Shown here: positions 20,079-24,451 of the stretch, piece after piece
How positions within the stretch are numbered: the stretch's first letter is position 1
How the letters are laid out: every line of letters starts with the position of its first letter
From: Hydrogenophilales bacterium
GTDB lineage: Bacteria > Pseudomonadota > Gammaproteobacteria > Burkholderiales > Thiobacillaceae
Direction: 5' to 3'
Assembly (NCBI GenBank): GCA_024636675.1
Contig: JAGXGM010000043.1
Coordinates: forward strand, 1-34,507
DNA: 34,507 nt
The notes under the pieces: generated by a model
Told to the model about the DNA's origin: nothing
Databases searched by the model: none
What the model saw: only the letters and a program-made list of their open reading frames with translations
Position numbers and translations under genes: made by a program

Positions 20079-20561
20079 TCAAGGTTTGATCTGCAGGTCG
20101 TTGCGGACCGCTTTTACGCCTTCGACGCCGTGCGCGATTTTTTCGGCCCGGGCGATCTGGTCTGGCGTGTCGACCCAGCCCGATAGCTGGACCGTGCCCT
20201 GGCTCGTTTCAACATTCACGCCAAGGCCTTTCATGACGTCGTTTTTCAGCAGAACGGCTTTCACTTTCGTCGTGATCCAGGCATCTTCGATGTATTCGCT
20301 GGGCAAAACGCGCTCGTTACGGACACTTGCATTGGCAAGCTCGTCCGTGTCCAACAGCAAGTCACGGTTGATGTCCGCATCGTGGAAAGCCTTGACGGGG
20401 CCACCCTGAGCCTGAAACTCTTCCAGGCTGATCTTGCCGTCGCCATTGCTGTCGTAGGTCTTGAAACCCGGCGTTGCCGGAACGGCCAGGGCGGACGCCG
20501 AGGCGGCGCTCAGCACGCCGGCAAGCGCGAGGGTCAGTAAGTGGGCGTGCAAGGATTTCAT
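20079..20561 (-). CDS. Secreted protein with EF-hand pair and BON domain
   Basis: 160 residues from the ATG at 20561, preceded by AAGGAGCC; the open frame runs further up but without a signal. Signal peptide MKSLHAHLLT...ASALA (to about 26). Two 12-residue EF-hand loops: DSNGDGKISLEE (37-48) and DINRDLLLDTDE (63-74), both with acidic residues at the calcium positions. Then a BON domain (about 92-160; YIEDAWITTKVKAVLL ... VQLSGWVDTPDQI ... VKAVRNDLQI), as in OsmY, which is thought to bind phospholipid membranes. I infer a calcium-sensing periplasmic envelope protein. The gene has a near-consensus sigma-54 promoter at 20620-20635. Confidence 0.88.
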   Translation of the reverse strand: MKSLHAHLLTLALAGVLSAASASALAVPATPGFKTYDSNGDGKISLEEFQAQGGPVKAFHDADINRDLLLDTDELANASVRNERVLPSEYIEDAWITTKVKAVLLKNDVMKGLGVNVETSQGTVQLSGWVDTPDQIARAEKIAHGVEGVKAVRNDLQIKP

Positions 20562-20619
20562 GTTTGGCTCCTTGATAATTGAGTTCGTAACGAATGCGGA
20601 TGCACTCAGGCTGGCATGT

Positions 20620-20635
20620 AGCGACGACCGTGCCA
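20620..20635 (-). promoter_or_regulatory. Sigma-54 promoter for the BON/EF-hand gene
   Basis: On the - strand: TGGCACGGTCGTCGCT, which fits TGGCACR-N4-TTGCW at all but one of the defined positions (C for the second T of the -12 part), with exact GG-N10-GC spacing. Predicted start of transcription near 20609, 48 bases before the ATG at 20561. An AT-rich palindrome TTTTTATT-C-AATAAAAA (20641-20657) lies directly upstream. Confidence 0.75.
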
Positions 20636-20719
20636 GCGCTTTTTTATTCAATAAAAACAGTCAGATGGATAATTTGTGCGGTGCGGGACGCCGAATTTCA
20701 GCCAGCTGAGCGGGCGGTA

Positions 20720-22534: not shown

Positions 22535-23001
22535 GGCGTCTTGTCCGGTGTGTTGCGTTGTTGCAGTGTTTTTTCCAGTGCCTTGATCTGGTCGAGCTTG
22601 TCCTGCAACTCCTGTGCGCGTGCAGTCTGCTGCCTGAGCTCGATGCGCGCCTTGAGCGACTTTTTCATCAGTTCGAGCAGCGCTTGCGCACGGGCATCCA
22701 CGTCGGTGATTGTGCCCAGGCTTTTGAGGCCGCGCTCGAGCGCCTCCACGCTGTCCTCGCGCTCCAGCAGGGCGGCCAGCTGAAAGCGCCGGGCGTCGTC
22801 AAGGCGGCGTTCGCCTTCCAGCCCGGCCAGCTTGCGGCGCCGCTGCTCGGGCGACAGCGCAGCCACCCGAGCCAGCTCGTCCAACAGCGCCGACGCGCCC
22901 AGCCCGGTTTGCGGGGGGACGAAAGGCGGGGATTCGGGCGGAGCGGCACAGGCGCACAGCATCAGCAACAACGCGGCAGGAAATACGGATTTGAACGTCA
23001 T
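22531..23001 (-). CDS. qseG: QseG-like lipoprotein of the GlrK/GlrR system
   Basis: 156 residues. A short signal (MTFKSVFPAALLLML) ends in the lipobox LCAC, giving lipid-modified Cys18. The mature part is helical, with heptad-like Leu/Glu/Arg patterns and a C-terminal coiled coil (about 110-150; LRQQTARAQELQDKLDQIKA). The sequence itself is too ordinary to name; the call rests on its position between a GlrK-like kinase and a GlrR-like regulator, the same place and size as enterobacterial QseG, an outer-membrane lipoprotein that interacts with the kinase. 16 bases after the kinase gene, 4-base overlap with glrR. Confidence 0.72.
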   Translation of the reverse strand: MTFKSVFPAALLLMLCACAAPPESPPFVPPQTGLGASALLDELARVAALSPEQRRRKLAGLEGERRLDDARRFQLAALLEREDSVEALERGLKSLGTITDVDARAQALLELMKKSLKARIELRQQTARAQELQDKLDQIKALEKTLQQRNTPDKTP

Positions 23002-23017
23002 TGCGGCATCGGCCAGG

Positions 23018-24451
23018 TTAACCGGGCCAGGTTAATTTAAAACAGGTCGACCACGGCACGCAATCGACCACCTCGATGTTGCCGCCCGCAGCCAGCAGCG
23101 ATTCGCGCACGATCGACAGGCCCAGCCCGCTGCCCTTGACCGTGCTGGCGGGCTGGCGCGCGCCCTGGAAAAATGGCTCGAAGATGCGGCTGCGCTCGGT
23201 TTCCGGGATGCCTTCACCCTGGTCGCACACCCACACCGCGACCGCGCCGTCGAGCGGCGCGCTCTTCATCAGGATATGTCCGCCCTCGGGGCTGAATTTG
23301 ATCGCGTTGGACAGCAGGTTGTCGAACACGGTTTCCAGCTGACTGCGGTCGGCATGCACCGTGGCGGCGGACAGCTGCATCTCGGCCCGGATGTCGCGCG
23401 CGTCGAGCGCCAGCCGCTGCCGTTCCAGCGCGCCGGCGAGCACCTCGGCCAGCGCATGCGGTGTGGCGGGCGGCAAGGTGGCGTCGCGCATCATGCCACT
23501 GTAGCGGATCAGGTCTTCGATGCGCTTCTGCAGATCGCGGCTGGCGCTGTCCATGATGGCGACGATGCTGTGCTGGCGCGCGTTGAGGCTACCCGCCAGT
23601 TCGTCGTCCAGCAGCGCGACGCCTTCGCGCAGGGACGCCAGCGGCGTTTTCAGTTCGTGCGACACGTGGCGCAAAAAGCGCAGCTTCTGGTCCTCCAGCG
23701 CCTGCAGGCGCTGGCGCAGCCAGTCGATTTCGCGTCCCAGTTCGACGATGTCATGCGGTCCGCTGATCACCTGCAGCGGTCGCAGGTCGGCCTGGCCGAG
23801 CTGCTGGATCGAGGCCTTGAGCTGCTTGATCGGACGGTTGATCATCCAGGAAAACACCGCGGCCAAGAGCAGCGTCAGCGGAATCAGTGCCAGCGCCAGC
23901 ACGATCAGCCTCTGGCGGGTGGCCTGCACCGTCGCTTCCAGCGCCTGCAAATCGTTTTGCACCGCGGCGTCGGCCTCGGCGAGCAGGGTACGGGTATCGA
24001 CATGCAGTGCGTCAAATGCAGGCTCGAGCGCATTGAAGCGTTCGCTATCGAGAAATACGCCGGGTTGCAACTGGTGATACAGGGTGCGGCTGCGTGCATC
24101 GAGCGCGGCCAGCGTGGCGCGCGCCGGCGCGTCAACGAGTTCGCCGTCGAGTCGCGCCAGCAGGGTTTGCAGCTCGTCGTAGCGGGTCCGCAGGGCGGGC
24201 GCGAATTCGGCGTCCTGCAGCAGGTGATACTGCCCGGCAGCGCGCTGCAACTGGATCGCCGATTCGGCGATCTGCCGCACGTCGCGCGTGACGGCAAGGC
24301 TGTTGCGGGTGAACTGACGCTGGGCGTCAACCACACCCTGCAGCACGTGCACCGCGTTGATCAGGCCGCTGGCCAGCGGCACGATCAGCACGCCCATGGC
24401 GACGATGACCAGAATGGTGAAGGAGCGGGGGTAGTACGGGCCGGAAAGCAT
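23018..24451 (-). CDS. glrK: Sensor histidine kinase, GlrK/QseE-like
   Basis: 477 residues from the ATG at 24451. N-terminus YYPRSFTILVIVAMGVLIVPL is the first membrane helix (about 7-30); a periplasmic, all-helical sensor of some 140 residues follows, then a second helix (LIVLALALIPLTLLLAAVFSW), a HAMP linker (INRPIKQLKASIQQLG), HisKA with phospho-acceptor His265 (RHVSHELKTPLASLREG), and the ATPase domain with NLLSNAIKFSPEGG, DQGEGIPETERSRIFEPFF and GSGLGLSIVRE. All catalytic motifs are intact. A TTG at 24523 would add 24 residues, but that stretch is the hairpin after gltD, so I reject it. The start has no good Shine-Dalgarno. Confidence 0.88.
   Translation of the reverse strand: MLSGPYYPRSFTILVIVAMGVLIVPLASGLINAVHVLQGVVDAQRQFTRNSLAVTRDVRQIAESAIQLQRAAGQYHLLQDAEFAPALRTRYDELQTLLARLDGELVDAPARATLAALDARSRTLYHQLQPGVFLDSERFNALEPAFDALHVDTRTLLAEADAAVQNDLQALEATVQATRQRLIVLALALIPLTLLLAAVFSWMINRPIKQLKASIQQLGQADLRPLQVISGPHDIVELGREIDWLRQRLQALEDQKLRFLRHVSHELKTPLASLREGVALLDDELAGSLNARQHSIVAIMDSASRDLQKRIEDLIRYSGMMRDATLPPATPHALAEVLAGALERQRLALDARDIRAEMQLSAATVHADRSQLETVFDNLLSNAIKFSPEGGHILMKSAPLDGAVAVWVCDQGEGIPETERSRIFEPFFQGARQPASTVKGSGLGLSIVRESLLAAGGNIEVVDCVPWSTCFKLTWPG

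Follow-up and report, generated by a model that had tools for sequence, protein, structure and literature searches.

Which genes does a GlrR-type response regulator control when protein-coding genes follow it in the place of a neighboring glmY? The locus that raises this question lies in a Hydrogenophilales bacterium (Thiobacillaceae; GenBank assembly GCA_024636675.1), on the 34,507 nucleotides of contig JAGXGM010000043.1, which were analyzed as a whole (hereafter, the window). Six genes on its minus strand encode a kinase, a small lipoprotein, a GlrR-like activator of sigma-54 promoters, a DUF1328 protein, an EF-hand/BON protein and a lipoprotein-like protein (Table 1). To our knowledge, GlrR is known from enterobacteria, through glmY and rpoE. 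Based on sequence comparisons, we consider with good confidence that the GlrK-QseG-like-GlrR operon controls both following units via a sigma-54 enhancer module. GlrR very probably drives the DUF1328 gene and the EF-hand/BON-lipoprotein unit, because the arrangement is conserved, helically phased, equipped with sites resembling those of integration host factor (IHF), and similar to that of E. coli glmY.

The sigma-54 module behind glrR is conserved in relatives

Both units are preceded by a -24/-12 element with GG at -24, GC at -12 and standard spacing, and by palindromes of the form TGTC-N10-GACA. The initial annotation of this DNA had named the two elements and three palindromes, and all were recovered at the positions in Table 1, one palindrome being perfect and every other motif one mismatch off. 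Motif abundance in the window was considered as evidence and rejected, since the counts were not above those of shuffles. The palindrome (≤1 mismatch) matched 15 times versus 10.3 expected (9 of 100 shuffles reached 15), and the -24/-12 pattern (≤2 mismatches) matched 9 times versus 12.1 expected (reached in 86 of 100). A tighter palindrome, TGTCG-N8-CGACA, chosen post hoc from the relatives, matched 8 times versus 1.5 expected, a count found in 0 of 100 shuffles. With window-wide counts near those of shuffles, the case rests on conservation in relatives, whose genomes were taken one per species, are in part incomplete and are mutually related.

The initial annotation had staked its proposal on the persistence of promoters and palindromes in relatives, and this was tested on 30 retrieved DUF1328 loci, 16 of which are GlrR-linked (from 15 genomes, window included). 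In 16 of the 16 GlrR-linked congeneric loci, the two -24/-12 elements were kept at similar distances, as was the palindrome on the DUF1328 side (≤1 mismatch). The DUF1328 element was located 59-70 bp ahead of the start codon throughout these 16, and the BON-unit element was present in all of them, twice with 2 mismatches. Both BON-side palindromes were found in 14 of the 16 and one each in the other two (L013, L014). In 20 loci, the distance from operator start to element start at the DUF1328 promoter was 90-92 bp.

Beyond the genus, a module was scored when a palindrome pair (or a single palindrome) plus a -24/-12 element occurred within 700 bp after glrR. The pair was detected in 30 of the 30 closest family loci (the best-scoring of 44 glrR matches, window included) and in 49 of 86 order loci; with at least one palindrome, the figures were 30/30 and 64/86. 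Twelve further family loci, mostly from other genera, had the pair in seven cases and a single palindrome plus element in one (L061). As controls for the family and order sets, the pair was found 0 times in 100 dinucleotide shuffles, 0 times on the reverse strand and 0 times in the glrR interior, while single-site matches in shuffles had a mean of 0.06 (family) or 0.1 (order) and were at most 2. An alignment of 30 BON promoters revealed conservation centered on the half-sites, the spacer core and the -24/-12 element, with the other intergenic DNA divergent, and past the end of glrR, the lone operator and the -24/-12 element likewise stand out in 20 DUF1328 promoters. In loci without a DUF1328 match (e.g., L050, L056, L058, L059), pair and promoter were retained before the EF-hand gene. 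The sequence observation, comprising both elements, the three palindromes and their conserved arrangement, is confirmed, and the proposal that a GlrR homologue acts on sigma-54 promoters of the adjacent DUF1328 and BON/EF-hand genes is supported by this conservation.

The module has the layout of E. coli glmY

The module has the order operator, IHF-like site, operator, promoter. In the window, the two BON-side operators are 63 bp apart, as the initial annotation had noted; the distance holds from start to start. In 47 of the 49 order modules, operator starts were separated by 64-68 bp (70 and 77 bp in the remaining two). From the second operator, the promoter lay at distances that clustered near 71, 83, 93, 103, 113, 126 and 136 bp. 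A Rayleigh test of these distances peaked at 10.5 bp (nR2 21.8), a value reached by none of 5000 uniform nulls and by none of 5000 jittered ones, the kinship of the loci being uncorrected.

The IHF consensus is WATCARNNNNTTR. With at most one mismatch, it was detected in 37 of the 49 order spacers (17 perfect), and in 30 of these 37 the core was on the sense strand at offset 15-17. Shuffled order spacers gave a mean of 4.6 matches at this threshold and 0.28 perfect ones, with maxima of 10 and 3. In the family spacers, the consensus (≤1 mismatch) was found in 16 of 30 versus 2.3 in shuffles.

The same layout was seen at glmY of E. coli K-12, where three TGTC-N10-GACA sites occur, all of them perfect; those two closest to the promoter start 63 bp apart and enclose AATCAATGAGTTA, an IHF consensus by eye. 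Passages of published work describe that QseF binds three TGTN12ACA sites with the help of IHF and activates the glmY sigma-54 promoter, that QseG is required (2018, PMC6075780), and that the operator consensus is TGTCN10GACA (2022, PMC8745638). Neither the IHF-like site between the operators nor the match to the glmY layout had been part of the initial annotation.

E. coli glmY-glrK-qseG-glrR shares with the window the order of kinase, lipoprotein and regulator, a sigma-54 target beside the operon, operators of the form TGTC-N10-GACA, and a 63-bp distance between the two operators nearest the promoter, with an IHF-like site enclosed that in the window is two mismatches off the consensus. The difference lies in the target: in E. 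coli it is a small RNA gene upstream of glrK with three operators, whereas in the window it would be protein genes downstream of glrR. GlmY (RF00128) was detected in 0 of 25 genomes (the window's own and 24 relatives, partly incomplete), while the E. coli control matched. An adjacent glmY is a feature of the enterobacterial branch, not of the regulator. As glmY was not found as the adjacent target, we classed the window as carrying a GlrR-type circuit and not the enterobacterial glmY circuit. The other E. coli comparison is rpoE P2, for which passages of PMC6075780 describe activation by QseF, dependence on sigma-54 and similar sites upstream; its target is a sigma factor gene, and it is likened here by that published description.

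We infer the following mechanism, in which a signal would lead to phosphorylation of GlrR. Phosphorylated GlrR would bind operators that are palindromes of the form TGTCG-N8-CGACA. Two of them, separated by six helical turns, would flank an IHF-type bend at the BON promoter, and DNA looping would carry the GlrR AAA+ oligomer to the sigma-54 polymerase at the -24/-12 elements. The genes then switched on would encode a DUF1328 mini-protein, a lipoprotein and an EF-hand/BON protein of the periplasm, with a presumptive role in the envelope. In effect, the enhancer layout of E. coli glmY would be attached to protein-coding envelope genes in place of the GlmY RNA. Such an attachment was seen in many GlrR-bearing betaproteobacteria and in several of the gammaproteobacteria examined.

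Genes of the locus

Across 444 positions, the activator and E. coli GlrR share 56% identity, including the conserved core RNRTE of the helix-turn-helix (HTH), and the activator's best NCBIfam model is GlrR (583.6 bits; next NtrC, 439.3). For the kinase, the identity with E. coli GlrK is 33% across 477 positions (E 1e-63), and the gene order kinase-lipoprotein-regulator is that of E. coli GlrK-QseG-GlrR. The initial annotation had called the middle gene QseG, an assignment that holds for its place and its lipobox only; a lipobox-bearing open reading frame (ORF) lies between kinase and regulator in 18 of 20 loci examined, and the window's small lipoprotein matched neither Pfam nor NCBIfam. The sigma-54 gene rpoN was found in the window's genome and in 24 of 24 relatives.

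Judged by eye from its N-terminus, the EF-hand/BON product is probably exported, and its gene presumably shares one transcript with the lipoprotein-like gene. For the latter, no Pfam match was obtained; counting the window, tblastn gave a downstream match in 12 of the GlrR-linked loci, which number 16 and in some cases end early. The lipobox-like cysteine of its product comes only at residue 49, and about 30 residues precede the hydrophobic stretch, which is unusual for a signal peptide; in many relatives the tblastn matches start at residue 1. A gene for a small secreted-looking protein of no known family occupies 17781-18254 of the window and is found within a few kb of the glrR locus in several congeners.

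Table 1 Features of the glrR locus in the window.
Feature	Position	Strand	Basis or remark
GlrK-like sensor histidine kinase	23018..24523	-	Pfam HAMP, HisKA, HATPase_c
Small lipoprotein in QseG position	22531..23001	-	Lipobox cysteine is residue 18
GlrR/QseF-like response regulator, sigma-54 activator (receiver, AAA+, HTH)	21185..22534	-	NCBIfam, E. coli comparison
Putative operator of DUF1328 promoter, directly past glrR stop codon	21166..21183	-	One mismatch from TGTC-N10-GACA
Putative -24/-12 element of DUF1328 gene, TGGCACGACCGCTGCT	21093-21078	-	One mismatch from TGGCACR-N4-TTGCW
DUF1328 protein (PF07043), 55 aa, YtjA-like	20858..21025	-	Pfam E 5e-13; NF010229 above cut-off
Putative distal operator of BON promoter	20783..20800	-	Perfect TGTC-N10-GACA
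Inter-operator spacer, 45 bp, degenerate IHF-like core GAACAACTGCTTG	20738..20782	-	2 mismatches from WATCARNNNNTTR
Putative proximal operator of BON promoter	20720..20737	-	One mismatch; 63 bp from distal operator (start to start)
Putative -24/-12 element of BON unit, TGGCACGGTCGTCGCT	20635-20620	-	One mismatch from TGGCACR-N4-TTGCW
Probably secreted EF-hand/BON protein, 160 aa	20079..20561	-	Pfam BON 2e-21, EF-hand_1 1e-7
Lipoprotein-like gene	19719..20051	-	Starts 27 bp past BON gene

Putative targets of the module differ between lineages

The genes behind the module vary by lineage, including BON, EF-hand, opgH/opgG, glycine-zipper and bactofilin genes. Behind 65 order modules (82 ORFs; Pfam, NCBIfam), we counted 15 ORFs with BON, 11 with MdoH/OpgH, 7 with EF-hand, 6 with glycine zipper and 3 with MdoG, the EF-hand and BON counts overlapping. 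In gammaproteobacteria, and also in further genera of the family to which the window belongs, small secreted EF-hand proteins follow modules adjacent to glrR or glrK, as identified by Pfam (L063, L067, L325, L329, L330, L339, with L329 below the curated cut-offs) or by eye (L068, L327, L332, L402). In L330, L332 and L402, the module, the EF-hand gene and glrK are on one strand, with the EF-hand gene in the place of glmY. In Dechloromonas-type genomes, the module lies upstream of glrK and precedes a bactofilin gene that points away from glrK, as identified by Pfam (L212, L215) or by eye (L344, L348, L354, L381, L387, L391, L393).

Two broader assignments were rejected. Periplasmic glucan genes are not a general GlrR target: 4 of 40 MdoG-family loci carry palindrome plus -24/-12 element upstream (pairs in L277, L278 and L300; one palindrome 161 bp from the element in L293), the MdoG family was found in 6 of 56 genus genomes, and none was found in the window's genome (81% complete). 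The opgH and opgG cases counted above are real but lineage-bound. DUF1328 is likewise not a target everywhere, as the module was found in none of the 19 rows that cover DUF1328 genes located apart from glrR; the 19 include E. coli ytjA and, through the overlap of L020 and L028, two rows that are repeats; one gammaproteobacterial DUF1328 gene (L328) does carry it. Away from glrR, the DUF1328 genes of L021, L025, L026 and L027 share a palindrome, TGTCAG...CTGACA, 136-151 bp before the start, from which L020 deviates, and no sigma-54 element was found at these five genes.

The adjacency of BON and DUF1328 genes is itself already present in E. coli, as osmY-ytjA, where ytjA lacks the combination of operator and -24/-12 element; the novelty is the control. 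No description of DUF1328, BON, EF-hand or opgH/mdoH genes as GlrR/QseF targets was found in our searches of the open-licence full-text literature, nor any of GlrR with EF-hand, or of GlrR with sigma-54 and Betaproteobacteria. The nearest general statement is a 2011 proposal of sigma-54 as controller of the bacterial exterior, which lists a QseF-like activator group of 117 and shares the envelope thesis (PMC3162934); its main text gave no relevant match for BON-domain, EF-hand or glucan targets.

The initial annotation had also termed the circuit self-contained. This is too strong: the adjacent target changes between lineages, and a further pair with a -24/-12 element lies away from glrR in the window's own genome (G000:C68:58604-58686, L261). 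Similar second pairs are present in many congeners, with small secreted proteins and other, differing genes downstream.

Operator use and alternative explanations

Whether GlrR itself reads these operators was weighed on scans of whole genomes. The exact operator pair was detected in 64 of 399 order genomes (3 of 399 for a reversed-pattern control) and in 29 of 281 class genomes (control in 1); a slightly looser pair was detected in 42 of 56 genus genomes (control in 2). In an alternative explanation, the promoters are sigma-54 promoters whose operators serve a different enhancer-binding protein (DctD-, PrsR- or NtrC-like), and glrR is adjacent by old synteny. Against this, by hand tally, the pair was found in 56 of 153 GlrR-positive versus 8 of 246 GlrR-negative order genomes, where positive means E at most 1e-135 and may admit a few other activators. 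For the eight pair-bearing GlrR-negative genomes, six were fetched, and none of the six had a -24/-12 element at the pair. A species-wide scan for pair plus promoter, one genome per species, yielded at least 120 modules. Among the 120 listed, 78 share their stretch with a GlrR of roughly 55% identity or higher, or with a GlrK match; 13 adjoin another activator (42-48% identity), and 29 have neither GlrR nor GlrK in the stretch. Among 80 of the modules listed, five enterobacterial ones (Tatumella, two Pantoea, Salmonella, Pluralibacter) precede glrK, the place of glmY, and served as a positive control by position, glmY RNA itself not being searched for in them. Operator pairs also precede exopolysaccharide-type genes, where another activator such as PrsR possibly shares the operator; some betaproteobacteria have a PrsR/PEP-CTERM system. 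Exclusive use of the operator by GlrR is rejected, since the listed modules include some beside other activators. The GlrR operator of E. coli has this form, by the consensus given in passages of PMC8745638, and the HTH core of GlrR is conserved. A different activator as the reader of these operators is improbable.

The pairs beside other genes are described here in their own right. In L365, L375, L379, L395, L405 and L408, the same layout of pair and -24/-12 element adjoins other activators, which are 44-47% identical to GlrR, and genes that by eye resemble those of periplasmic substrate-binding proteins. In L203, L206, L207, L209, L326, L333 and L337, the genes behind the pairs are of exopolysaccharide type or resemble acyl-amino-acid synthases, and most of these pairs are accompanied by -24/-12-like elements; the L333 target matches PF13444 and FeeM, and the other six were judged by eye. 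In L204 and L205, pairs with -24/-12-like elements precede a gene resembling cyanophycin synthetase by eye.

Two further explanations concern the promoters. Chance or composition in a GC-rich intergenic region would agree with window-wide counts no higher than in shuffles. It is contradicted by the conservation at fixed places and by the absence of pairs from shuffles, the reverse strand and the glrR interior, together with the helical phasing and the conserved footprint, and we regard it as hardly credible. The two units may instead be read mainly from other promoters, e.g., those of a stress sigma factor, with the sigma-54 module fine-tuning; a section of PMC5437024 (passages) that deals with small genes under tight sigma-S control lists the YtjA homologue of Salmonella, and osmY and ytjA are adjacent in E. 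coli. As the upstream conservation is concentrated on the sigma-54 module, this is unlikely, and it would be compatible with control by GlrR.

Several observations weigh against control of both units by GlrR. Four of the 12 further family loci (L064, L065, L066, L074) and 22 of the 86 order loci had no module at the thresholds used, although some family and order loci without an adjacent module carry one farther on or upstream of glrK. The score of the activator is below the equivalog cut-off of the GlrR model (763), and no similarity was detected between the middle lipoprotein and E. coli QseG (hhalign probability 2.3%, with one E. coli sequence as the comparison). The DUF1328 promoter has a single recognizable operator, and no second one (≤1 mismatch) was seen 50-75 bp upstream of the first, including the end of glrR, in 20 loci. 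The window's own IHF-like core is two mismatches off the consensus, and the kinship of the loci enters the phasing statistics. Finally, the palindrome can serve other enhancer-binding proteins, as the modules beside other activators or beside neither GlrR nor GlrK illustrate.

Implications

The interpretation is well supported, and the locus is one instance of a wider pattern, in which the GlrR enhancer cassette is conserved and the envelope outputs attached to it are exchangeable. More tentatively, and with odds we place somewhat below even, GlrK-QseG-GlrR may be an old circuit that maintains the envelope in beta- and gammaproteobacteria, with a standard sigma-54 cassette alongside and an envelope effector chosen per lineage; the ancestral output would have been secreted EF-hand proteins, and GlmY a late enterobacterial replacement. 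If so, the effectors of the lineages would be secreted EF-hand or EF-hand/BON proteins, DUF1328, opgG/opgH glucan synthesis, glycine-zipper proteins and bactofilin. The EF-hand ancestry would point to periplasmic calcium or the state of the outer membrane as what is guarded, and GlmY would occupy a place still held by an EF-hand gene in some gammaproteobacteria.

If the promoters function as predicted, a GlrR enhancer layout would be common to two large bacterial groups, with its output exchanged many times. Orphan envelope families (DUF1328, small EF-hand, BON) would gain a regulator and a testable stimulus. The locus would also offer a natural case of regulatory rewiring, in which the switch and the enhancer geometry are constant and the payload is different.

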